In this document: positions 15,043-60,338 of the stretch, piece after piece
How positions within the stretch are numbered: position 1 is the first letter of the stretch
Layout of the letters: each line of letters begins with the position of its first letter
Origin: Zingiber officinale
Taxonomy: Eukaryota > Streptophyta > Magnoliopsida > Zingiberales > Zingiberaceae
DNA: 64,000 bases
NCBI RefSeq assembly: GCF_018446385.1
Contig: NC_056000.1
Location: 48,888,722-48,952,721, forward strand
Reading direction: 5' to 3'
Notes under the pieces: generated by a model
Told to the model about the DNA's origin: nothing
The model's database searches: none
The model's input: only the letters and a program-made list of their open reading frames with translations
Made by a program: the position numbers and the translations under genes

Positions 15043-15659
15043 TGTCTGTTAGGATCTTCGGATGCGGCTAGAGAGGGGGTGTGAATAGCCGACCTCAAAT
15101 TCTCGTTTCTTCCTACAATTTGAGTTAGCGCAGCGGAAATAAAAGATAGAAACGAAACGGGAGAATATCAAACCTCAAACGCGACGATATAACGAGGTTT
15201 GGAGATGATACTCCTACTCCTCGGCGTGTCCGTAAGGTGGACGAATCCTATCAATCCGTCAGTGGATGAGACCCCGGAAAACCGGCTAATAAAAACTCCT
15301 TCTGGGTGGAGAAACCTCGCCACAATTTCTCTTGCAACAGCAAGATCAGAGTACAAGAAATACAGCAAGAAGCCAAGAACAATATGAATGTAAAAACACT
15401 AGTTTGCTTGCCTTCTCGTCGACTGTTGATGAAGCAGCAACTTCACGGATGCCAACCACAGCAACAACTGTTGTTGGAGACCTAACCGAGGGAAGCTCAC
15501 ACGAAGCTTCAGCAGTAGAGAGCTTAACAAAGCTCAGATCGCAAGGAGGAAGAAGAAGAAGAAAACCAGCATCTATAGAGGCCCTCCAAATCTTGATTTA
15601 TATGAACCTGCGAAGGAGAAGACAGAGACCTAAATCTAGCCGTTGTGACTCAACGGCTA

Positions 15660-16035
15660 GACCTGGACCGATCAGGCTCCACCCTGATCGGTCCAGGGAG
15701 GATCTGATCGGTCAGGGGACCGATCAGGCCCTAGGCTGATCGGTCCCTAGACCGATCCCAACTCTCACAGAAAGTTGGTTGCCGAGCCCTGATCGGTTTG
15801 TGGACCGATCAGGTCATAGGTGGATCGGTCCACAGACCGATCCCCCTATTGATCCCCTATTATTCTCTTCTTGCTGATCGGTCACCAGACCGATCAGATA
15901 ACCCACAGAGAGCTACTGTGTGGTTACTGATCGGTCACGAGACCGATCAGATAACTAAGGTATCACTGGATCGGTCGACAGACTGATCCAGACAGCCAAA
16001 GTATCATTGGATCGGTCAACAGACCGATCCAATGC
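15660..16035. repeat. Palindrome array GATCGGTC-n4-GACCGATC
   Basis: About eight near-perfect palindromes. The outer pair changes together: TGATCGGTC...GACCGATCA in some units, GGATCGGTC...GACCGATCC in others. Loops are short and variable (cacca, cacag, cgaca, caaca). The same array is at about 20630-20965 in the other LTR, with a further block inside the element at 17228-17350. Confidence 0.88.
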
Positions 16036-16084
16036 CTCTGTTGGTTTTAGAGCTTCCCAGCCCTAAACCCTAACGTCTTCCTGG

Positions 16085-16395
16085 TCCATAGAACGAGCTA
16101 CCGAGCCCTCTCCGACTTCCATGTCCGGTCCAGAGAACGAGCTACCGAGCCCTCTCTGACCTAGTCCGGAGAACGAGCTACCGAGCCCTCCCCGACTTCC
16201 ACGTCCGGTCCAGAGAATGAGCTATCGAGCCCTCTCTGACCTAATCAGGAGAACGAGCTACCGAGCCCTCTCCAACTCCAACCAGTCCAGAGAACGAGCT
16301 ACCGAGCCCTCTCTGACTTAGTCCGGAGAACGAGCTACCGAACCCTCTCCGACTCCATCCAGTCCAGAGAATGAGCTACCGAGCCCTCTCTGACC
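16085..16395. repeat. Tandem hairpin array, core gaacgagctaccgagccc
   Basis: Eight units here and ten in the other LTR (21010-21400), period about 35-45 bp. The arms flanking the core alternate between CAGAGA...TCTCTG and CGGAGA...TCTCCG, so most units keep a 6-bp pairing although the arm bases differ. A few units have one mismatch or wobble. Confidence 0.85.
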
Positions 16396-16397
16396 TC

Positions 16398-16570
16398 CCA
16401 TGCCAAGCTTCCATACTTGGACTTTTCCCGTGCCAAGCTCCCTGCTTGAACTTCTCCGTGCCAAGTCTCCATACTTGGACTTTTCCCATGCCAAGCTCCC
16501 TGCTTGGACTTTTCCGTGCCAAGTCTTCATACTTGGACCTTTCCATGCCAAGTCTCCATACTTGGACTTT
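16398..16570. repeat. Tandem hairpin array, CCAAGT...ACTTGG / CCAAGC...GCTTGG
   Basis: About six units, roughly 26-30 bp each, ending in gacttttcc. The arms covary: CCAAGT pairs with ACTTGG and CCAAGC with GCTTGG. One unit (CCAAGC...ACTTGG) is mixed. The equivalent array is at 21403-21575. Confidence 0.85.
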
Positions 16571-16769
16571 TCCCGTGTCAGGTCAACTCAAGTCGGGTCA
16601 ACTAGGTCAACCTTGACCAAAGGTTGCACCCACAATACCTCAAGTTTCTATTCTTGTCAAACATCAAAATATAACTTCTCCATTCTTGTCAAACATCAAA
16701 ATATACCTCGAGTCATGTCAACTCGAGTCGGGTCACTCAGGTCAACCTTGACCTAAGGTTGCACCAACA

Positions 16770-16787
16770 ATCTCCCCCTTTTTGATG
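16770..16787 (-). other. Polypurine tract (minus-strand element)
   Basis: Read on the minus strand it is CATCAAAAAGGGGGAGAT, directly next to the 3' LTR: the expected place and composition of the plus-strand primer. Confidence 0.8.
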
Positions 16788-18470
16788 TTTGACAAAAACC
16801 ATAATCAAGTTAGATTAACCCGATAACCTAACTTAGGTTTTCCAATAGTTCTCCAATGTTCTTCCTTGAACATTCTCTGAACATTCTCCCCAAACTCCAA
16901 TGTTCTTCCTTGAACATTCTCTGGACATTCTCCCCCTTTTTGACACACATCAAAAAGGAGTGAATCAAGGTCAAGAGTTTCTTCCTAATGACCTTTCATT
17001 GAAACCCTTAATTTCCCCCTTGATACTAAAGTCAACAATCAACTTAGTGATAATTCCATATCACTCATCCTCAGAAATCTTGACGAGTAAAAACTCCCCC
17101 TAAAAGTCAACTCCTCCTTGATCATTGCACCAACAATGTCTTGGAGAGTTTCAACCCTTTAGAAATCTAAAACACCAACTTCCACAGCTGAAATTTCAGA
17201 CAACAGTCGAAAATCAGCATTTTGGCACGCACTGATCGGTCACCAGACCGATCAGGACTTCACTGGATCGGTCACCAGACCGATCCACACTGCCCTGGAT
17301 CGGTCCAGTGACCGATCCAGACTTCCCTGGATCGATCAGGATCTTCTCTGATCGGTCTACAACTCTCTGATAAGGATTTCTGATTTTTCTCCCGGAATTC
17401 AGAAACCCCTAAAAAATTACATAAAACTCCAAAAATTGTAAAATTTTGAGGATACATTCCTCATAACATATATTATCATGGAAAAATAGTTTTCTATGAA
17501 AATAACTCCCATTTTTTAATCTTGATACAAAGTTCGAAATACTTTGAAATAGCTCAAGGTTAATCCATTTTTGTATCAACTTGCTCAATGATGAATGCTA
17601 TCACTAGAAAAGCTTCATCAAGGTTTTTCAAATTAATTTTGAAATGATCTTAAACCATTCAATTTAGGACCACAATCTTAGGGCTAAATGTACATGACTT
17701 GTACACAAGTTTTCCTTATGATCCTCAAATTCGAATTAGGCTCATCTAGGTACAAGAACTATGCACCTTGATCCTAACTCATAATCCTAATATCTCACAC
17801 ACATCTAAGGTGTATCAAACACATCCAGTCAATTTTGATGTGAGATATGGGTTTAGGTCATCTTAAGCTAAGTTCTCATGCATTTTCTAAACAACAATTT
17901 GATCTCCATATCAAATTGTGTTTCTATCATTAAATCACATTAATTGATCATAAATGCAAGAGATGATGACATGACATAAAATAATATCATAAGTGGAAAT
18001 ATGTGTCAATGTCATGATGTCATGGCATAAAGTATGAAACTTAAATAAGGCATGACATATAACTAACCTAAGCATTATCATGACATTTCAAATGATAATA
18101 AAATAAAGATGATGTCATGACATGACATATGACAAACAATGTATGGCAAATAACATACAAAGGTATAGAAAATACCTAATTCTAGCCTTAGTTGCCATTT
18201 TTGATAATTTTGATCATTTTACCATAAATTCTATATTCCTAAGTGTAATAGACCTAAAATCATATACTAAAGATTTTTAGATCACTATGTGCCAATTAGA
18301 TTGACCCTAGAAAACTCCTCAAATGTGGTTGGCACATCCTAATCACCTTAGGAATAATTTTTAATTTCATTTTCAATGCTTGATTACACCTTGAAAATTC
18401 CTAAAATGTCACCTTTTGCCACGAGTAGGTTAACTACCTATCCAATTAAGGTTGGCACACCCTAAACCAT
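16788..18470. other. Non-coding interior of the minus-strand gag-only element
   Basis: Lies between the gag stop and the polypurine tract on the minus strand. It is AT-rich with many atgacatgacata-type words, which recur in the equivalent part of the plus-strand gag-only element. It contains a block of GATCGGT palindromes at 17228-17350. I find no pol remnant. Confidence 0.7.
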
Positions 18471-19946
18471 CTAGCGTGAAGGGATCACGCTCCTAGGAAC
18501 CCAATACCTATTTGAGCTCATTGGGTTCACTAAATATTCACTAGGGATGACTTCCCTAGCAACCCTCCTAATGACCCTCCTAGGCTTTAAAGCCTTGGTC
18601 ATTTGGGACTCATCAAGATCAACTCTAGGGGTGACTCCCCTTGTGACCTTGGTGATGGTCTTCTTAGCCCTAAGTCTTGTTCCATAATCGAATGGAACAT
18701 TATGATAAGTGGGCTTGACCACTTGAGACTTAGGTTTGTGACCCAAACCTCTCATGTCCTTGGGCTTTGATTTTTGACCCTTAGACCCTAGAGTTGACTT
18801 CTCCAAATTCTTAAGAGCATTTTCTAAAGTGTCAAGTCTTGACCTTAAGATTTGATTTTCCTTCTTTAATACCTCAAGCTTTAATTTTCCATTTTTCTTT
18901 GAGGTATTCCTAGGCATATGTCTAGTTGTTTTGGGATTCCTATCTAGGTTTTCCTTAACCTTAGATGAGTTAACTCTAAGGTTGGCATTTCTAGCATTGT
19001 CCTTATCTAGGCTAACATGTTTGGCACCTAAGGACATGTATCGGTTTCTATAGTTATCATGCTTATCATTATTGACAATTGCAATAAAACTACTAGCATG
19101 TGTCTTATTAGAATTGCAAGAATGTGCCTTAAAGGATACCTTAGGGTTTGCCTTAGCTCCTCCTATAGATGTGCTTGGTCTCTTGTCCTTGTGAGGTTGT
19201 CTCCCCCTTGAACATTGACTCCTATAATGTCCCCTTTGCTTGCATTGGAAGCACACCACGTGCTCCTTGCCTTTGCGTATCGAGACTCCGACTTCCTTGA
19301 CTTTTGATGCCGGTGGAGTCTTCCTAATCCTCTTTGGACATTTACTTTTGTAATGCCCATATTCCCTACACTCAAAACACATTATATGTAATTTACTTGA
19401 AATTAAGTTGTTTGAGTTACCTAGGGTTGAGGATGGATATAAGCTCTCTCCTTCATCCCTTCCGGAGGTAGAGGCTTCTTCTTCTTGCTCCAGTCTTGAA
19501 GAAGAACTCTCCTCCTCTTCTTCCTTAGATGTTGAGTAGCCCTCAACTTCTAATTCCACACCTCCATGATGTGAGCTACTTGGCTCACTTGACTCCTCTT
19601 CATGACTTGAATTGGAGCTCTCCTCATGGAACTTAGCCAAGTTGTTCCACAACTCCTTGGCATTGTTGTATCTACCTATCTTACACAAGATATCATTAGG
19701 TAATGAAAATTCAAAGATTTTCGTTACCTCATCATTGATTATGGATTAGTGGATTTGTTCCTTCGTCCACTTCTTCTTCTTGAGAGGTTCTCCTTCTTTA
19801 TCCATCAAAGGAATAAAACCTACTTGTACACAATTCCAATTTACTAGGTTAGTCATAAGAAAATACTTCATTCTTACCTTCCAATACGCGAAGTCGTCGT
19901 GATCGTAGAAGGGTGGAATTGTGACGTCTTCTCCAAGTTGATCCAT
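18471..19946 (-). pseudogene. Gag with two CCHC zinc knuckles, one in-frame stop
   Basis: A 492-codon frame from MDQLGEDVTIPPFYDHDDF is open except for one in-frame TAA (19743-19745, after WTKEQIH). The N-terminus has the Copia/UBN2 gag signature (YWKVRMKYFL). The middle is acidic and serine-rich. Two retroviral-type zinc knuckles follow (CFECREYGHYKSKC and CFQCKQRGHYRSQC), then a lysine-rich coil (LEVLKKENQILRSRLDTLEN) and a tail ending NRYWVPRSVIPSR. Gag forms the particle that packages element RNA. The frame is otherwise intact, so decay is slight. The tail is shared with the plus-strand gag-only element. Confidence 0.88.
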
Positions 19947-19994
19947 TCTCTAGCTCGTGCTCCCCCGGGTGTTAATCCGATGAAGAGCGATCTC

Positions 19995-20006
19995 GCTCTA
20001 ATACCA
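19995..20006 (-). other. Primer-binding site (initiator tRNA-Met type)
   Basis: On the minus strand TGGTATTAGAGC lies two bases from the 5' LTR. It differs from the usual TGGTATCAGAGC at one base. Confidence 0.88.
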
Positions 20007-20008
20007 CT

Positions 20009-21773
20009 TGTTAGGATCTTCGGATACGGCTAGAGAGGGGGGGTGTGAATAGCCGACCCCAAATTCTCGTTTCTTCCTACAATTTGAGTTAGCGCAGCGG
20101 AAATAAAAGATAGAAACGAAACGGGAGAATATCAAACCTCAAACGCGACGATATAACGAGGTTCGGAGATGATACTCCTACTCCTCGGCGTGTCCGTAAG
20201 GTGGACGAATCCTATCAATCCATCGGTGGATGAGACCCCGGAAAATCGGCTAATAAAAACTCTTTCTGGGTGGAGAAACCTCGCCACAATTTCTCTTGCA
20301 ACAGCAAGACCAGAGTACAAGAAATACAGCAAGAAGCCAAGAACAATATGAATGTAAAAACACTAGTTTGCTTGCCTTCTCGTCGACTGTTGATGAAGCA
20401 GCAACTTCACGGATGCCAACCACAGCAACAACTGTTGTTGGAGACCCAGCCGAGGGAAGCTCACACGAAGCTTCAGCAGTAGAGAGCTCAACAAAGCTCA
20501 GATCGCAAGGAGGAAGAAGAAGACGAAAACCAGCATCTATAGAGGCCCTCCAAATCTTGATTTATATGAACCTGCGAAGGAGAAGACAGAGACCTAAATC
20601 TAGCCGTTGTGACTCAACGGCTAGACCTGGACCGATCAGGCTCCACCCTGATCGGTCCAGGGAGGATCTGATCGGTCCCCAGACCGATCCTAACTCTCAC
20701 AGAAAGTTGGTTGTCGACCCCTGATCGGTCTGTGGACCGATCAGGCCATAGGTGGATCGGTCCACAGACCGATCCCCCTATTAATCCCCTATTGTTCTCT
20801 TCTTGCTGATCGGTCACCAGACCGATCAGATAACCCACAGAGAGCTACTGTGTGGTTACTGATCGGTCACGAGACCGATCAGATAACTAAGGTATCACTG
20901 GATCGGTCGACAGACCGATCCAGACAGCCAAAGTATCACTGGATCGGTCAACAGACCGATCCAATGCCTCTGTTGGTTTTAGAGCTTCCCAGCCCTAAAC
21001 CCTAACGTCTTCCTGGTCCATAGAACGAGCTACCGAGCCCTCTCTGACCTAGTCCGGAGAACAAGCTACCGAGCCCTCTCTGACCTAGTCCGGAGAACAA
21101 GCTACCGAGCCCTTTCCGACTTCCACGTCCGGTCCAGAGAACGAGCTACCGACCCCTCTCTGACCTAGTCCGGAGAATGAGCTACCGAGCCCTCTCCGAC
21201 TTCTACGTCCGGTCCAGAGAATGAGCTACCGAGCCCTCTCTGACCTAATCCGGAGAACGAGCTACCGAGTCCTCTCCAACTCCAACCAGTCCAGAGAACG
21301 AGCTACCGAGCCCTCTCTGACCTAGTCCGGAGAACGAGCTACCGAGCCCTCTCCGACTCCATCCAGTCCAGAGAACGAGCTACCGAGCCCTCTCTGACCT
21401 CCCATGCCAAGCTTCCATACTTGGACTTTTCCCGTGCCAAGCTCCCTGCTTGGACTTCTCCGTGCCAAGTCTCCATACTTGAACTTTTCCCGTGCCAAGC
21501 TCCCTGCTTGGACTTTTCCGTGCCAAGTCTCCATACTTGGACCTTTCCATGCCAAGTCTCCATACTTGGACTTTTCCCGTGTCAGGTCAACTCAAGTCGG
21601 GTCAACCAGGTCAACCTTGACCAAAGGTTACACCCACAATACCCCAAGTTCCTATTCTTGTCAAACATCAAAATATAACTTCTCCATTCTTGTCAAACAT
21701 CAAAATATACCTCGAGTCAGGTCAACTCGAGTCGGGTCACCCAGGTCAACCTTGACCTAAGGTTGCGCCAACA
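20009..21773 (-). repeat. 5' LTR of the minus-strand gag-only element
   Basis: 1,765 bp, the same parts as the left LTR. Relative to it, one pair of GATCGGT palindromes is missing near 20670 and the gaacgagctaccgagccc array has more units. Unit gain and loss, not only point change, separates the two copies. Confidence 0.92.
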
Positions 21774-29977: not shown

Positions 29978-31140
29978 GAAGGCCGTCTAGCCCAGACGTT
30001 AAACCGTAGAGCCGCGCCGATAAATACCGGCGAGCACCGACGTTAAATATCGAGAGACGAGCCGCCATAAATCCCCGAGCGGAAGATCGACGAGCACCGT
30101 CGTTAAACATCGAGAGCCGCTACCGACCGGCTATAAAACCGTCGAGCACTGACGTTAAATATCGAGAGACGAGCCGGCGTCTATAAATCCCCGAGCGAAA
30201 GATCGAAGAGCACTGTCGTTAAACATCGAGAGTCGCGCCGACCGGCTATAAATAACCGCGCCGTCGAGCACCGACGTTAAATATCGAGAGACGAGCCGGT
30301 GTCTATAAATCCCCGAGCGGAAGATCGACGAGCACCGTCGTTAAACATCGAGAGCCGCGCCGACCGGCTATAAATAACCGCGCCGTTGAGCACCGACGTT
30401 AAATATCGAGAGACGAGCCGACGTCTATAAATCCCCGAGCGGAAGATCGACGAGCACTGTCGTTAAACATCGAGAGCCGCTCCGACCGACTATAAATAAC
30501 CGCGTCGAGCATCGACGTTAAATATCTAGAGACGAGCCGACGCCTATAAATCCTCGAGCGGAAGATCGACGAGCACCGTCGTTAAACATCGAGAGTCGCG
30601 CCGACTATAAATAACCGCGGCGTCGAGCACCGACGTTAAATATCTAGAGACGAGCCGCTATAAATCCCGAGCGGAAGATCGACGAGCACCATCGTTAAAC
30701 ATCGAGAGCCGCCCGACCGGCTATAAATATCCGAGCACCGACGTTAAATATCGAGAGACGAGCCGCCATCCGAGCGGAAGATCGACGAGCACCGTCGTTA
30801 AACATCGAGAGCCGCGCCGACCGGCTATAAATGACCGCGCCGTTGAGCACCGACGTTAAATATCGAGAGACGAGACGGCGTCTATAAATCCCCGAGCGGA
30901 AGATCGACGAGCACCGTCGTTAAACATCGAGAGCCGCGCCGACTGTAACCGCGCCGTCGAGCACCGACGTTAAATATCGAGAGACGAGCCGACGTCTATA
31001 AATCCCCGAGCGGAAGATCGACAAGCACCGTCGTTAAACATCGAGAGCCGCGCCGACCGGCTATAAATAACCGCACCGTCGAGCACCGACGTTAAACATC
31101 TAGAGACGCCTCGGCGTCTATAAATAATCCGAGCGGAATA
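29978..31140 (+). repeat. Tandem repeat, about 125-130 bp, about nine copies
   Basis: Each unit is made of two related halves: a gagcaccgacgttaaatatc half and a gagcaccgtcgttaaacatc half, joined by ctataaatccccgagcggaa and ctataaataaccgcgcc. CTATAAA occurs in nearly every half. The half-unit is about 64 bp, like the unit of element A, so the array probably grew from the same ancestral repeat by doubling. Confidence 0.9.
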
Positions 31141-31485
31141 TCGTCGACATTACAATTATCCGTATTCTCTGCCGATAGTTAGACCGGCGCTAAGTTCCGC
31201 TCAGATTCGAGGTACAAAAGTTCTGATCGGCTTATAACGAGCGATTCTTGGCAACATCGGATGATATTCGGTCGAACGGAAGGGCTAGGGAAAACACTTG
31301 CGAGAAGGCACCTCGAAGGTTAAAGGTGTGATAGTAGACGAGCGGGCAGCACAAGTATTAGCGAGGGGACAGTGCAAAAAGAGGGGGTGCACGAAAGGAA
31401 AGCATTTCATTGAAATTAAAACCTTAGGCCGAGTGGCCTAAGTACAAAAAGATTCATGTTCAGCCGAGCAGCGAAATTACAAGAA
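31141..31485. other. Spacer between array and antisense gene, element B
   Basis: Untranslated sequence after the repeat array. On the minus strand it would be the 3' end of the antisense transcript. No other gene is seen. Confidence 0.5.
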
Positions 31486-48474: not shown

Positions 48475-51673
<3,199 letters not shown>

Positions 51674-52699
51674 CTAAATTTACTACAAATCTGGTATGCA
51701 ACTACTTTGTTGTGTCAAGATTTCAACTAAGCTAAACATCAATATATATGAATCTTACAGTCAAAATATATACAGATATATTTCATACAATTATATAACT
51801 CTGGTTGATCAATTCTCCAATGCGTATAGACCATATTTTGCGGGATACATATATAATGCTCTAAGATGTATCAAACTCTAAACCTTATTCACCAAGAGTT
51901 TCTCAACTCATCAGGTCTGACTAGTCTAACCAACACACATTCATGGTAACAACATCACATCATAGAAGTTATTATTTCTTAAAAGAATATATTTTGAATA
52001 TCGAAGATACTGATCTTTCAGTTCTGTTTTTGATCAACTATGGCCATGGTTTAGCTAATATGGATTGTAGGGTATACAAAATCACTTTACCTGACTAATC
52101 CAGTCTGGCCTCAAACAGATCTGAAGCACCGCACTAACAGTAAATATGTTAGATGTCTTGGTGTAGTCACTGATCACATTAGTTAAAAAGATACAAGCTT
52201 ACTAAAATACCCAACGGAGAACATAATTCTGCCAAATTGTGAACTTTCCCTTATATTCTGCCTCGAGTTGAACTAAATCCTAAAGTTAGCTAACCCCTAA
52301 CAAATTCTCAACACTAGTCCCACCTTTTCTTTTTCTCCCAACTTAATGTTATTTGCGCAATACGATCAAAGTAGAACTAAATCAGTAAAAGAAAAGGCAT
52401 TAGCCTAAGAAATGCGGGTGATGGTCAACATACATATTTGCAAGGAATTTTTCTTAGTTTTTCAGTGAAGCATCAAATCTCTGTACATTTAAGGCCTATA
52501 TCTATCAAACCTATTTCCCTTTCCTTTCCTAACTACAACATGAAAAAAAAAGAACACACTGTTGGTGCAACATCCCTCAGGTCAAGGTTGACCTGGGTGA
52601 CCAAGCTGAGTCTTGGTTTGAGTTTAGATGTTTGACAATAAGAAATTGATTGAAGAAGAGTCAAGTAGGTCAAGGTTGACCGGATACTTGACAGGGAAG

Positions 52700-53000
52700 T
52701 CCTGGTGAGTGAAGCCAGGCAGAAGGAAAACCCTAGTGAGTGAAGCTAGGTGAAAGTCCTGGTGAGTGAAGCTAGGTGAAAGTCCTGGTGAGTGAAACCA
52801 GGTGAAAACCCTGGTGAGTGAAGCTAGGTGAAAGTCCTGGTGAGTGAAGCCAGGCAGAAGGAAAACCCTAGTGAGTGAAGCTAGGTGAAAGTCCTGGTGA
52901 GTGAAGCCAGGTGAAAGCCCTAGTGAGTGAAGCTAGGCAGATGGAAAACCCTAGTGAGTGAAGCTAGGTGAAAGTCCTGGTGAGTGAAGCCAGGCAAGGG
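52700..53000 (+). repeat. Array of 11 hairpins with a constant tgagtgaag loop
   Basis: Each unit is a 5-bp stem around tgagtgaag (once tgagtgaaa). Stems are CCTAG/CTAGG or CCTGG/CCAGG. Two units are CCTGG/CTAGG, which still pair in plus-strand RNA through one G-U pair. Spacers are gtgaaag or caga-ggaaaa. Degraded copies lie at 58497-58830. Confidence 0.88.
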
Positions 53001-53004
53001 AAAA

Positions 53005-53293
53005 TCCAGATGGATCAAGGATGATCGGACATCTGGTGTTGGGAAGTCCAAGTAGGTCAAAGGATTGACTGGATACTTGGCACGAGGAAATACAGATAGG
53101 TCAAAGGGATTGACCAGACATCTGATGGAAGTCCAAGTAGGTCAAGGGAGTGACCAGATACTTGGCATGAATAGAAAAGTCTAAGTGGGTCAAAGGGATT
53201 GACCAGACACTTGGTGGGAAGTCCTAGCAGGTCAAAGGAGTGACCAGATGCTAGGCATGATGTACCAACAGGTCAAGGTTGACCGGATGTTGG
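53005..53293 (+). repeat. Seven hairpins with GGTCAA...TTGACC-type core and variable arms
   Basis: Arms in order: CCAGAT/ATCTGG, CCAAGT/ACTTGG, CAGAT/ATCTG, CCAAGT/ACTTGG, CTAAGT/ACTTGG (one U-G pair), CCTAGC/GCTAGG and CCAACA/TGTTGG. An eighth unit at 52659-52695 has GTCAAGT/ACTTGAC. The core (aggtcaaaggattgacc and similar) is conserved and partly self-complementary. Confidence 0.88.
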
Positions 53294-53336
53294 TTTGAGA
53301 GGCTTGGAACTTGGTTTTGGGCAAAAACCAAGTGTT

Positions 53337-53615
53337 GGATCGATCAGTGGATCGATCCAGGAGCTGGATCGATCAGTGGATCGATCCAGGCTTCTCCTAA
53401 GCGAACAGAGAGCCTCTGGATCGATCCGTGGATCGATCCAGATGTTCCAATCGATCAGTGGATCGATTGGGACGCGGCTGCTTCGCGCAATAAGCGCTGG
53501 ATCGATCCGTGGATCGATCCAGGCGTTTTTCCAGAGCACAGAGGCGCTCTGGATCGATTCGTGGATCGATCCAAAGCCTCCCCGATCGATTGGGAATATT
53601 CGAATCGATCGAGAT
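53337..53615. repeat. GATCGATC palindrome array
   Basis: Seven or so palindromes such as GGATCGATC-agtg-GATCGATCC and CCAATCGATC-agtg-GATCGATTGG; the outer pairs change together. More are inside the element at 57343-57480 and in the right LTR at about 59150-59400. They give rise to spurious frames of repeated D-R-S and G-S-I residues on both strands. Confidence 0.88.
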
Positions 53616-54144
53616 CCGACCGTTGGCATCGATAAAGGCCGCAGGCGTTCATTTCCTTCGGCATCTCTTCACTGTTTCATCTCAGATCTTCGCCAGCTCC
53701 TCCACAGCACTCTCAAAGCTCGTGATCGCCAGTTCTTGAAGGTTCTTGGAAGCTCTCCGAGTCAAGAGGCGGATCAAAGGCAAGAAGAGAAGCTAGGGTT
53801 AGGGTTTTCTGCATTCATTGTAAGCTTTGTGCTTGTATTTTGTTTCCCTTTCCTTCTTCTTGTACCGAGAGTCTTGTAGGGCTTCTCCGCCCTCGGTAGT
53901 TACCGAAAAGGAGTGTTTCATAGTGGAGGGTGCGTGCGTGGTGTGGATCCTTGGATTAGTCACCTCCTTTGGAGGTGGATACCAAGTAAAATCCTAGTGT
54001 TAGCGTGGGTGTATTTGTTTCTGTATTTTCCGCTGCATATTCTTGAAGAAACAATCAACGCCAAGCAACGCCGAGCAACGCCAAGCACCGAGCGAACGCG
54101 ACGAGCTATTCACCCCCCCTCTAGCTACTTTTGGTCCTAACAAG

Positions 54145-54156
54145 TGGTATCAGAGC
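54145..54156 (+). other. Primer-binding site (initiator tRNA-Met)
   Basis: TGGTATCAGAGC, two bases after the LTR, a perfect match to the complement of the initiator tRNA-Met 3' end. Confidence 0.95.
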
Positions 54157-54274
54157 AAGGCCGCTCTTCACCGGAATCATCGCCGGAAGGGTCAAGCATA
54201 ACAAGAAAAGCTAGAGGGGTGAAGAAGTTGGAGCAAATTCTTCAAGTTCAAGATTTTATCAAGCTCAACTTCAA

Positions 54275-56045
54275 GATGCAATTCCAAGATGGACTTGGAT
54301 TTGACACAAGGGTGGCTCCACCATATTCATCTACAAGCTTCGATTCTTGGAAATCAAGAATCGAAATTTTTTTTATGATGGAGATAGAGCAATGGTTTGC
54401 TCTCATGGAAGGTTTTGAAGCTCCCACAAATTCCAAGGCAAAGTACTCAAAAGAGCAAGTGGAGCGAGACCAAATCAAGATGTGAGGCCAATGACAAGTG
54501 ACCAAGCTTTTGGTCAATTTATTGCCAAGAAATCTTGGAACAAATTGGAGAGTTTGAAGATGCCAAGGAGCTTTGGAGCAAATTGGCAAGAATTCATGAG
54601 ATCCCCTCCACTGTACCAAATCAAGGAGAATCCAAAGAGGGCGACTCATTGGATCAAGACCAAGAGGAGGACTCCGAGGTTGAGAGATGCTCAACCTCCG
54701 AAGAAGAAGTTCAAGAAGAAGCTTCATCTTCAAGGGAATGCAACGAAGGGAACAAGGAGGGAGCATACTCCTTGTTTCATATTCAAGATGATGAAGCCTC
54801 CACCTCTAGGATTGAGGGGGAGCAATCCTTGGTGACACCGGATCAAGAAGAAGGAGAAGCTTCTACATCCGGGTCAAGAGATGAAGAGATTGAAGAAGCT
54901 TCTACCTCCACGAGTCAAGAAAAATCAAATGGAGGAGAATCAAGATCGGATCAAGAGGAAGCTTCTACCTCCGGATCCAAAGGGAAAGATGCCACCCCTA
55001 CAAGCAAAGGTATAAATATTTCAATTAAAAATAAAAATCATATTATATGCTTTGAGTGTAGGGAACATGGGCACTACAAGAGCAAGTGCCCTAAATTGGC
55101 CAAGAAGAAGGGCCAAGTGGCACAAAAGGGCAAGGCGAAGATCATCCCCAACACAAAGAAGAGCAAGGAGCATATTATATGCTTCTCTTGCAATCAAAAG
55201 GGGCATTACCGAAGTCAATGCCCCAAGGGGAAGAAGATGGTCAAGACTCAAGGAGGCATTCGTCAAGGGGGAGCCTCCAAGGTAAAGAAGAAGGTAACAT
55301 TTATTGAGCCTACCCCTTTACATTATGGTAAAAAGCATGATAGTTCTAATTTATATCATTTTAATGCTATTTACCATGAAAATAGAAAGCATGATAGCGT
55401 TAAAGAAAAACATATAGCTTTTCATGCTAAAACCACTACACCTAAGGCTAGGAATGTAGGTAAAAGTCTAGGCAAGAACTCTAAGGATTTTAGATACAAG
55501 CCCAAGAACAAATATGCTCATGAATCAAATGAAAAATCTAAAACTAAGGACTTAGTGATAGAAAATCAAGTCTTGAGGTCAAGGCTTGATAAAATGGAAA
55601 GGACCCTAAAAAGGATGGAAAATATCCTAAAAGGGCAAATGAGCATAGCCTAGGTCTAGGAGCACAAAGGTCATCTAATGGCCATAGAGGTTTGGGATAC
55701 AAACCAAAGGCTAAGAAGGATGTGCCCTCTTACCATAGAGTTCCATATAGTTATGGAACAAACCCTAGGTCTAGTGGTCAAGCCAAGAATACTAGGGAAG
55801 TCATCCCTAAGAGTATTTTTGCAATAAATGTGACTAAGACTTCTAAGAAGTCTAAGAAAGTCACAAAGAAGGTTACAAGGGAAGCTATCCCTAGAGTTGA
55901 CCTAGAAAATGTGACCAAGGCTTCTAAGAAGCCCAACAAGGTCACTAGGAAGGTATGTAGGGAAGTTATCCCTAGTGAGTACCTAGAGCATCCAAGGAGC
56001 ACCAATAGGTGTTGGGTTCCTAGGAGCATCTTCTCTACCCCATAG
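54275..56045 (+). pseudogene. Gag with two CCHC zinc knuckles, frameshifted
   Basis: Starts MQFQDGLGFD and reads to a TGA near 54485. The sequence continues in another frame from about 54535 (EFEDAKELWSKLARIHE) to 55653, then returns to the first frame at 55692-56045. Zinc knuckles are CFECREHGHYKSKC and CFSCNQKGHYRSQC. A long acidic, serine-rich spacer precedes them, and a coil (ENQVLRSRLDKMERTLKRME) and basic region follow. The tail ends NRCWVPRSIFSTP, like the minus-strand element. In autonomous Copia elements the protease would follow about here; nothing of it remains. Confidence 0.87.
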
Positions 56046-58374
56046 ATGGGTTAGAGAGTGTCAACTCCGATTAGAAGGGTAGTTAACCCAACTTTGAGGA
56101 AATTGACACTCAAGGAGCATTTTCAAGGTTTTAGTTAACCTTATTATTGATTACTCCTTGAAAGAGTAAAATGTGTCTAATGGTGAAAAATTGATTTTAT
56201 CTTAAAATGGCACAAATTGGGAAAACCTTGAGAAATACCAAGTTGGGATTTTGGTATTCTCTTGGAAATTTAAGGCAATCCGGGCCTTGATTTATGTAAT
56301 CACTCTTGAGGAAAAATGGAATATGCCAACATTTGAGGACATGTTTATTTTCAATTGGCATACATTAAATCAAGGAAATTAGAAATGCCAATTTAGGCTT
56401 TGGCATTCTCTTGTAGCACTTTCGGGCAATCTAGGTTTAAGGTGTAAGTTTAGCTAAGACTTTAAGGATACTTAGATAGTTAATCTAGGTATATTTTATT
56501 TATGCTAAATCTTGCCATGATTGTTTGCCCATCATATGCCATGACATCATGTCTAGTTTTACATTCATGTTTTATTATGAAAAATCCAAAAATACCATGT
56601 CATGACATTCATACATCATGTAGTAATAGGATATTTTCTTTTGAAAATTATTTTCTTTTGATGTATGCCATAACATAATCATGCATTAAGTTTAATTCCT
56701 TGTAATTAAGGACAAATGGCATTTAACGACACTTATTGACAAGTGACATCCTAGGTGGATGTCTAATATTTCTAAAATGCCTAGATAAATATGCATGATC
56801 CCTAGATTAGGGCAAAACCAAAATCTACATCTCACAAAGACTATAAGGTGACTTGTATGTGTTTTAGTCCATAATAGATACAAGTGAGATGTTAGGATGA
56901 TGAACAAAACTCAACATGTTGATTTAGTGCATTTTTTTGAGTTTTTAGGTTCATCAAAACACATAGTTATGTGTTTTCCCATCATTGGGAAAGCTAATGT
57001 ACAAGTCATGTGCATTATGCCCAAGGAACATGATGGGATATTGGTTTTGAAAATGTTTTTAAAATGTTTTTGGAAAACTTTGGTGAAGGCTATCTTTTGA
57101 TAGTAATCACCATTGAATAGTTAGACACAAACCTGAAGAAAAACACTAACGTTTTTGCAAGTTTTCAAGTTTGTGTCAATCTTTGAAAATATGATGTATT
57201 TTCATAGAAAGCTATTTTTCCATGATTAAGTATGCCCTAAATAATGTCTACACGAAATTTCATGATTTTTTGATTTTTGTAGAATTTTCTAGGGGTTTCT
57301 GAAGTTGACTGAAATGGAATTTCAGCAACTATCAGAGCTCCGATCGATCCATGGATCGATTGGAGTGCCGAATCGATCCGTGGATCGATTCAAAGTCTCC
57401 CGCGAGCAGAAGCTCGCTGGATCGATCAGCCGATCGATCCAGGTAGTCTGAATCGATCAGTGGATCGATTCAGAAAGGTTCAATCGATTGGAACCCAACT
57501 CCAATCGATCCAAGCTGCTGATTTTGGCTGGGAAGGCCTGATTTCAGCTTCTTTGAACCTCTTTGAGTCTAGGTAACCATTCCAAACCCTTAAAATACAT
57601 TTGTATACATACAAAGGGTGTTTTCATGTGAAAACAAGGATGGATTGGTTAAGGAAGGCTTCATTGAAGTTTAGGTTGAGGTTTGTTTCAAATTTTGAGT
57701 ATTTGAACCTCAAAACTTCTAAATTTGGGTTTCCTAAAGGTTTAGGGATTCCAAGTCATTGTTGGTGCAATGACAGAAGTTACCACCATGTCTTTAGGGG
57801 GAGGGACTCTTTAAAGACATGAAAAATTTATTTTTCATGAACCTTGGAAGGTGGTTAACCTTCTTTAAAGAAAATGCTCATGTATGAGCTTTTGAACTTG
57901 AAATGGGGAGTGGATATCCTCATTATTTCAAGTGGGAACTCAAGTGGTTAGAAAATGCTCAAGGTTGGGTATTTGTCTACATTGAGGGAGAAGTTAAGGA
58001 TAAATGAAGGGTATGGGACCTTCATTATCGTGTTGATCACAACGAGCGATGTTGTGAACAACGTTGAGCAACTCTTCAGGGGGAGAATCGTCAACAAATG
58101 GATTTGTTGATGTGTACCCAAAATTGGGGTATGGGTTGATGTGTGCCCAAAGATGAGTTGATGTGTGCCAATAGGGGGAGAATGAAAGGACCTGTGATTG
58201 GGTGTAAGTTAGGCTTTCATTACCTAGAGGGAGTGTGCCCTCTTAGGGGGAGAATGAAGAGCTTAATTTATGTGTTCATTACCTAGTGGCATGAAGATTG
58301 AGGCTATAGGATTAGCCTAACTTACATGTGGTATTGTAAGTGTTATTGTGGTATTGTCGAACATCAAAGGGAGA
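56046..58374. other. Non-coding interior of the plus-strand gag-only element
   Basis: AT-rich, with catgacatcatg-type words shared with the minus-strand element. It contains a GATCGATC palindrome block at 57343-57480 and ends in a purine tract (catcaaagggagat) next to the 3' LTR. No pol remnant is seen. Confidence 0.75.
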
Positions 58375-59939
58375 TTGTTGGTGCACATCCCTCGGTTGAC
58401 CTGGTGACCAAGTCGAGTCTTGGTTTGAGTTTAGATGTTTGACAATAAGAAATTGATTGAAGAAGAGTCAGTAGGTCGAGGTTTAGGCAAAGGAAGTCTG
58501 GTGAGTGAAGCCAGGCTGAAGGAAAACCCTAGTGAGTGAAGCTGGGTGAAAGTCACGTGAGTGAAGCTAGGTGAAAGTCCCGTGAGTGAAACCGGTGAAA
58601 CCCTAGTGGTGAAGCTGGTGAAAGTCACAGTGAGTGAAACCGGTGAAACCCTAGTGAGTGAAGCTGGGTGAAAGTCCCGGTGAGTGCAGGCGGAAGGAAA
58701 ACCCTAGTGAGTGAAGCTAGGTGAAAGTCCAGTGAGTGAAGCCGGTGAAAGCCCTAGTGAGTGAAGCTAGGCGGATGGAAAACCCTAGTGAGTGAAGCTG
58801 GTGAAAGTCCCGTGAGTGAAGCCGGAAAATCCGGATGGATCGAGGATGATCGGACATCCGGTGTTGGGAAGTCCAAGTAGGTCAAAGGATTGATTGGATA
58901 CTTGGCACGAGGAAATCTGATGAAGGTCGAAGGATCAGGACTCCGATGGAAGTCCAAGTAGGTCGAGGGTGACCGGATACTTGGCATGAATAGAAAAGTC
59001 TAAGTGGGTCAAAGGATTGACCGGACACTTGGTGGGAAGTCTAGCAGTCAAGGGTGACGGATGCTAGGCATGATGTACCAGCAGTCGAGGTTGACCGGAT
59101 GTTGGTTCGAGAGGCTTGGAACTTGGTTTTGGGCAAAACCAAGTGTTGGATCGATCGGTGGATCGATCCAGAGCCGGATCGATCGGTGGATCGATCCGAG
59201 CTAGCGAACAGAGAGCCTCCGGATCGATCCGTGGATCGATCCAGATGTTCAATCGATCGGTGGATCGATTGGGACGCTGCCGCTAATAAGCGCCGGATCG
59301 ATCCGTGGATCGATCCGGTGCGTGCACAGAGGCGCTCTGGATCGATCCGTGGATCGATCCAAAGCCTCCCCGATCGATTGGGAATATTCGAATCGATCGG
59401 GATCCGACCGTTGGCGTCGATAAAGGCCGCAGGCATTCATTTCCTTCGGCATCTCTTCTCCGATTCACTCCAGATCTTCGCCAGCTCCTCCACAACACTC
59501 TCAAAGCTCGTGATCGCCAGTTCTTGAAGGTTCTTGGAAGCTCTCCGAGTCAAGAGGCGGATCAAAGGCAAGAAGAGAAGCTAGGGTTAGGGTTTTCTGC
59601 ATTCATTGTAAGCTTTGTGCTTGTATTTTGTTTCCCTTTCCTTCTTCTTGTACCGAGAGTCTTGTAGGGCTTCTCCGCCCTCGGTAGTTACCGAAAAGGA
59701 GTGTTTCATAGTGGAGGGTGCGTGCGTGGTGTGGATCCTTGGATTAGTCACCTCCTTTGGAGGTGGATACCAAGTAAAATCCTAGTGTTAGCGTGGGTGT
59801 ATTTGTTTCTGTATTTTCCGCTGCATATTCTTGAAGAAACAATCAACGCCAAGCAACGCCGAGCAACGCCAAGCACCGAGCGAACGCGACGAGCTATTCC
59901 CCCCCCCCCCCCCCCCTCTAGCTACTTTTGGTCCTAACA
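58375..59939 (+). repeat. 3' LTR of the plus-strand gag-only element
   Basis: Same layout as the 5' LTR. The first 1.07 kb shows many one- to five-base deletions against the 5' LTR, while roughly the last 420 bp are almost identical. An 18-C run (59899-59916) replaces a seven-C run in the 5' LTR. Confidence 0.92.
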
Positions 59940-60338
59940 CACACCGCGAGCATATTGCAGAGGTCCAGAAACCAAACTGAGTTCCAGGCTTTTACTTCGG
60001 TAGGCATAAAAAAACCAACCTGGCATAGCTCTTCAAAACCTAATTACCACGTCATAAAAATATTCCCTTGAATGCAGATGATTTATCCGAAAACTTCACT
60101 CCAGAAAGTATCTATTCCACAACGAACAACAGCTAACTAAACAAGAGGAAAGATCCAAAATTGAACCTCCTGAACCAAGAAATACAAGGCTTATCGTCCA
60201 CTCGCACTGACTCCTTGTGAGAAAGGAGAAAAAAAAATATCAACAGCACAATCCATTCATCATCAGCGATACATCTCTCCCACCCTAAAAAACACATTTT
60301 TTGGGGAGGAAATGACATAAGTGAAAGAAAGATCTTAC

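Follow-up and report, generated by a model that had tools for sequence, protein, structure and literature searches.

Paired hairpin arrays in the LTRs of a probable Sirevirus-type element of ginger

Palindromic boxes in the long terminal repeats (LTRs) of Sireviruses have been published by Bousios et al. 2010 (PMC2829016). The sections of that paper used here describe high-copy boxes, built on one short motif per family, that lie upstream of the TATA box and within a CpG island, in elements that also have multiple AGGGGGAG tracts, an inverted repeat at the tract and an AT/TG attachment site. In maize Sireviruses, clusters of palindromes with predicted secondary structure occupy the LTR regulatory region, and this palindrome-rich cis region has been linked to secondary structure and small RNAs (PMC10760457 and PMC5311732, in the sections used here). 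The motif there is CACCGGACNNNGTCCGGTG, and small RNAs were mapped, whereas our analysis of ginger uses sequence only. The sections used of PMC10760457 ask why Sireviruses retain palindromes that possibly make them targets of small-RNA silencing. Among the titles and abstract openings listed for the open-licence literature, we found no covariation test of Sirevirus palindromes, and the text of PMC10760457 contains neither "covaria" nor "compensatory".

Here we analyze an LTR element of the ginger genome that shares its high-copy palindromic LTR boxes with these systems. The element lies in what we call the window, the whole 64,000-nucleotide stretch of DNA under study. We regard it as a known kind of structure of uncommon size and composition, in which the palindrome region of Sireviruses is enlarged to three hairpin classes, one of them (class two) bulged, that are shared between families.

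The element and its hairpins

Table 1 Features of the hairpin-LTR element, in positions of the window.
Feature	Position	Strand	Basis or remark
LTR element overall	52560-59939	+	flanked by 5-base target duplication CACAC
Target-site duplication CACAC	5' copy 52555..52559; same five bases 59940-59944	.	read from sequence
5' LTR, TGTTGG...CTAACA, 1583 bp	52560..54142	+	LTR comparison
c2.1 and c2.2, class-two hairpins close to the LTR start, plus small x.1 (52601-52616)	52578..52690	+	
Class-one array, 11 units CCT(A/G)G-TGAGTGAA(G/A)-C(T/C)AGG	52701..52994	+	motif scan, hairpin listing
Class-two array, seven hairpins c2.3-c2.9	53006..53294	+	hairpin listing
Extra hairpin x.2, 10 bp	53309..53333	+	hairpin listing
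Class-three array, GATCGATC-type palindromes x6, interpreted as repeated-motif boxes of Sirevirus kind	53335..53575	+	
TATA-like GATAAA directly past palindrome cluster	53631..53636	+	weak TATA match
gag-like ORF, two CCHC zinc knuckles	54535..55653	+	ORF list and domain scan
GATCGATC-type palindromes, linker region	57341..57471	+	motif scan
AGGGGGAG x4, linker	57796..58252 (57796, 58078, 58173, 58245)	+	motif scan
Terminal polypurine tract, AAAGGGAGAT in this copy	58366..58375	+	read from sequence
3' LTR, U3 a private outlier	58376..59939	+	LTR comparison

The 5' LTR is followed by TGGTATCAGAGC at 54145..54156 (+), which we take to be the primer binding site. The coding part that comes next runs in broken frames, as the piece 54144-54485 before the gag-like ORF is in a different frame. 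A domain scan of two further pieces found no family match, and the ORF list holds no ORF longer than 117 aa and no pol ORF after the gag-like part. The element had been called gag-only, and the ORF list together with the zinc knuckles is consistent with this. Gag-only non-autonomous TR-GAG elements, which by their description likewise have an LTR pair and gag with no long pol ORF, are presumably similar. The terminal polypurine tract of the window copy is altered (AAAGGGAG); in the LTR listing, most 3' or solo copies have GGGGAGAT (GGGGAG) ahead of them.

The hairpin array that the original prediction placed in U3 is real. We defined 28 hairpins in the 5' LTR at 52578-53575 (11 class-one, 9 class-two, 6 class-three and 2 extra), and their 242 pairs comprise 235 Watson-Crick, 6 G-U and 1 A-C pair, with none of any other kind. 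The class-one loop motif has 22 matches in the window with at most one mismatch (mean expected, 0.8), and the class-three motif has 33 with at most three mismatches (0 expected), although the latter count takes both strands of the same palindromes and includes 6 hits in another element. Nine of the 11 class-one units are fully Watson-Crick, and the two mixed units (CCTGG/CTAGG) contain one G-U each, as had been predicted. Class-two hairpins c2.3-c2.9 share a design of a 6-7 bp outer arm, a 3-nt bulge and an inner stem of GGTCA/TGACC type. For eight class-two outer arms entered by hand, 52 of 54 positions are paired between true partners when G-U is counted, compared with a mean of 40.9 for swapped partners; only 2 of 40,320 orders reach this score, and the true order is among these two. 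The predicted pairing of class-two arms is upheld, but we counted nine units where eight had been given, and the tally of arm types varies with the lumping of arms that are nearly alike. Paired differences between units of one LTR, a further part of the prediction, do exist. Lying upstream of the TATA-like box, the arrays enter element RNA only through the U3 of the 3' LTR, again as had been proposed.

Comparison with Sirevirus features

Several published Sirevirus features recur in this element. The four AGGGGGAG polypurine tracts fall within ~0.6 kb of the 3' LTR, and the attachment site reads GGGAGAT then TGTTGG, which gives AT/TG. An inverted repeat at the tract matches at 15 of 17 bases (score 24, versus a maximum of 22 in 300 shuffles); its right arm starts ~55 bp into the LTR, whereas the mean given in the sections used of PMC2829016 is 28. 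CpG observed/expected is 1.38 at 53330-53640 and 0.11 at 52560-53320, so a CpG island precedes the TATA-like box, itself a weak match. By eye, the LTR end is C-rich and the TAACAAGTGGTATCAGAGC junction with the primer binding site is present; the corresponding Sirevirus marks are a poly-C integrase signal and a conserved primer-binding-site junction.

Besides the weak TATA match, two observations count against a Sirevirus assignment. Class-three boxes of the window family have the core CGATC/GATCG and lack a CGG-CCG core; however, the published Sirevirus Tnd-1 likewise lacks it (PMC2829016, in the sections used). Boxes with the published core, CGGTC/GACCG, occur in the relatives L062 and L067 and in the second window element described below. 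The linker also carries palindromes of the repeated-motif type though we saw no env ORF, whereas elements without env have no linker copies of the box in the published set, as the sections used of PMC2829016 present it. These two differences, and modules that are common to families, set the ginger element apart from the published Sireviruses. Taken together, the element carries most of the Sirevirus marks tested, and on these LTR and linker features it is probably of Sirevirus type.

The second, related element occupies 15047-21773 of the window on the minus strand, with an LTR pair at 88%. It carries GGATCGGTC..GACCGATCC palindromes, and the outer arm of one of them has T.G in one LTR and T-A in the other. 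We considered locus L061 as a pol source or partner for the hairpin-LTR element and rejected it, since it holds a reverse-oriented element related to this second one.

Stem variation within and between families

We searched the genome (3,090,333,446 bases in 211 contigs) for copies, scoring 40 of 8,067 candidates in the first search, and extracted 48 LTRs, among them both LTRs of some elements. The family test used 47 LTRs, with the 3' LTR of the window omitted as an outlier and with truncated or overlong cuts retained (such as L012+201, L012+5962, L018, L043, L044 and L047). After filtering on unit length and mismatches, 1,247 of 1,316 unit instances passed and 69 were dropped. The resulting 10,882 pair cells were 10,533 Watson-Crick, 213 G-U, 96 A-C and 40 other.

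The original prediction took paired changes as a mark of RNA-level selection, and this was not borne out in the family. Only ten types of two-sided variant were found, eight of which are switches between the two class-one unit types at pair 4. Five of these eight form runs across neighbouring units within the same LTRs, a pattern resembling array rearrangement; the other three (c1.1, c1.2, c1.3) are isolated. We thus rejected the class-one unit types as covariation, given that both types coexist in the array and that five of eight switches span adjacent units. Only two two-sided types remain beyond the class-one switch, roughly fitting the ~1 two-sided cell expected under independent change (from 209 one-sided cells). 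The covariation and mismatch check that had been proposed could be made, but it had little power. One-sided types numbered 58 G-U, 42 A-C and 37 other, a count that omits three pairs without a Watson-Crick row (two G-U, one A-C); the G-U to A-C difference (p=0.13) lies near the equality at which the prediction held that RNA-level selection would lose support. Singletons are near-even (44 G-U, 35 A-C, 35 other), as neutral decay would give, and shared types number 14, 7 and 2.

Local substitution rates account for the G-U share in stems, which at 67/121 equals the share predicted from non-stem rates (0.567). The per-site ratio of C>T over G>A is 1.68 outside stems and 1.37 within them. Outside stems, the C>T excess is clear at CHH sites (R-U5, 39/78 versus 18/81); at CHG sites, the context of class-one pair 4, there is no clear excess in R-U5 (8/12 versus 5/7) and an excess in other U3 (10/15 versus 9/24). 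Variation inside the family shows no clear signature of RNA-level selection. Young insertions probably undergo mostly neutral decay, so the power of this test is low.

Comparison of diverged families gave a different picture. It covered 69 sequences, namely the 47 LTRs of the family, 10 additional LTRs, 10 C1 loci and both LTRs of the second element; L049 and L050 were left out. The 58 distinct class-two hairpins contain 619 Watson-Crick, 39 G-U, 20 A-C and 18 other cells. Their score for double changes is 3,442, whereas none of 300 shuffles exceeded 1,247; this test ignored relatedness and admitted hairpins in which four or more of the seven outer pairs are Watson-Crick. Grouped by unit, one-sided changes are 22 G-U, 15 A-C and 12 other, and two-sided changes are Watson-Crick in five cases and not in two. 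At pair 2 of c2.7, C-G is found in L064, L069 and L070, T.G in the window family and T-A in L060; c2.8 has C-G or T-A (T-A in L063 and L066); and c2.9 has C-G, T-A (L063) or T.G (L020+6099). Another two-sided case, the c2.2 core of L064, is identical to the core of a neighbouring unit and may be a conversion from it, and the remaining case comes from a single LTR (L013+201). A looser, deeper count of class two (78 units, 936 pairs) gave 29 G-U and 11 A-C, with 21 two-sided pairs, 11 of them Watson-Crick compared with 2.5 to 4.0 expected; this result is weak because the set holds mis-assigned hairpins. That some pairs change together between diverged families supports a long-term keeping of symmetry.

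Genome-wide there are 222,737 occurrences of the class-one 19-mer, counting both unit types and mixed forms, and a 22-base tag from R-U5 of the window subfamily has 712 exact matches; the class-one module is thus probably common to many families. Given controls for descent and strand bias, so many hairpin copies in one genome make RNA and DNA causes separable by counting. At class-one pair 4, 210,108 of the units are matched, 7,846 are G-U and 4,783 are A-C (ratio 1.64). At pairs 1, 2, 3 and 5, 41,002 units are of G-U type (263,739 minus 222,737) and 24,113 of A-C type (246,850 minus 222,737), a ratio of 1.70, and both ratios are near the local non-stem ratio. The sole genome-wide control, an unpaired CHG site in the spacer, has the opposite bias, with 16 C>T versus 238 G>A; these are counts of mutated forms at one site, and a founder variant could dominate them. 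As the spacer bias is reversed, a general C>T excess need not explain the G-U bias of the stems. Class-one cells are 36 G-U and 16 A-C in 57 LTRs (L049 and L050 again left out) and 26 and 12 in 16 other loci.

Hairpin modules probably multiply by tandem duplication and also pass from one family to another. L060 (1-1801) is a chimeric LTR: its hairpin array resembles that of the window family (82% over 441 bp), whereas its U3 start and R-U5 resemble those of the second element. In L034 (1-1651), an LTR is preceded by a polypurine tract and followed by a primer binding site, an arrangement found where tandem elements share one LTR.

Candidate explanations for the symmetry

We consider it reasonably probable that the element is a non-autonomous Ty1/copia LTR element of Sirevirus type, whose hairpins form a palindrome-rich cis-regulatory region with symmetry kept over long times. 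Class three would correspond to the known repeated-motif boxes just upstream of the promoter, with classes one and two as tandem hairpin modules added upstream of it. Symmetry would be maintained over family time scales while sequence drifts, and each copy would decay neutrally after insertion. The array may work mainly as dyad-symmetric DNA in the promoter; when transcribed from the 3' LTR, it could form a foldback RNA that the host converts to small RNAs, by analogy with the published work in maize. However, the matched drift of the arms points to a structural requirement more readily than to a fixed transcription-factor site. We think it unlikely that selection acts at the RNA level, with plus-strand 3'-end hairpins serving in packaging, dimerisation, control of 3' ends or transport. 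The three states at pair 2 of c2.7 follow the path expected through a plus-strand wobble, and the G-U excess in the genome-wide class-one counts, in class-one cells and in the looser class-two count, together with the reversed spacer control, points the same way. All of these counts, however, ignore descent, and inside the family the G-U share is that of the local background and arms vary independently outside the class-one switch. Folding of 52560-53540 compared with 20 shuffles is similarly divided: the plus strand has z -11.4 and a lower absolute energy than the minus strand, but the minus-strand z is more negative (-15.9). Good folding on both strands is consistent with matching of arms at the DNA level, where template switching, arm conversion or module exchange would act without selection. 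The L064 core shared with a neighbouring unit and the class-one switches, which supply eight of the ten two-sided family types and fall partly in runs, also fit this explanation, which we likewise hold to be improbable. One-sided variants are common and remain uncorrected within insertions, and the c2.4 wobble pair persists in 47/47 family LTRs and in some other families, both of which argue against it. We give still less credence to a portable RNA hairpin cassette. In this view, Sirevirus families that differ in R-U5 would swap class-one and class-two modules, whose pairing in plus-strand RNA would be maintained because the modules allow enzyme-less elements to be both recognised and copied by the machinery of others. 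RNA-level selection is neither demonstrated nor excluded, and symmetry may be kept at the RNA or at the DNA level.

The 3' LTR of the window raises the question of assembly errors. R-U5 mostly matches between the two LTRs, and the 3' U3 has many small differences; across 58376-59400 we observed many private small deletions and CpG-making transitions. Among other copies, the top match is at 88% for the 3' LTR and at 97% for the 5' LTR. From the 5' to the 3' LTR, 29 of 66 transitions create a CpG and 1 removes one, taking CpG from 60 to 90, and L049 (22/58) and L050 (19/79) are alike in this respect. Because natural decay removes CpG, our suspicion falls on nanopore errors that escaped polishing at methylated sites, with gene conversion as an alternative origin of this LTR. 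At symmetric palindrome sites, such errors would imitate paired changes. The published ginger assembly, probably the one analyzed here, used nanopore reads for assembly and Illumina reads for polishing according to the sections used of PMC8342452, which fits an artefact of nanopore errors and short-read polishing that makes the apparent covariation partly false. We nonetheless consider such an artefact a very unlikely explanation for the variants: the hairpins stand in the other 47 LTRs, and in the 11 of these that we compared, CpG-making is weaker or absent, with at most 10 made versus 2 removed (L016-6047). The 3' LTR has 28 A>G changes, an excess that none of the 47 comes near.

Elsewhere in the window, outside the hairpin-LTR element, the stretch 29978-31147 has many self matches of 82-87%. 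By eye, 49860-51540 (minus strand) resembles exons of a putative gene for a chloroplast FtsH-type protease.
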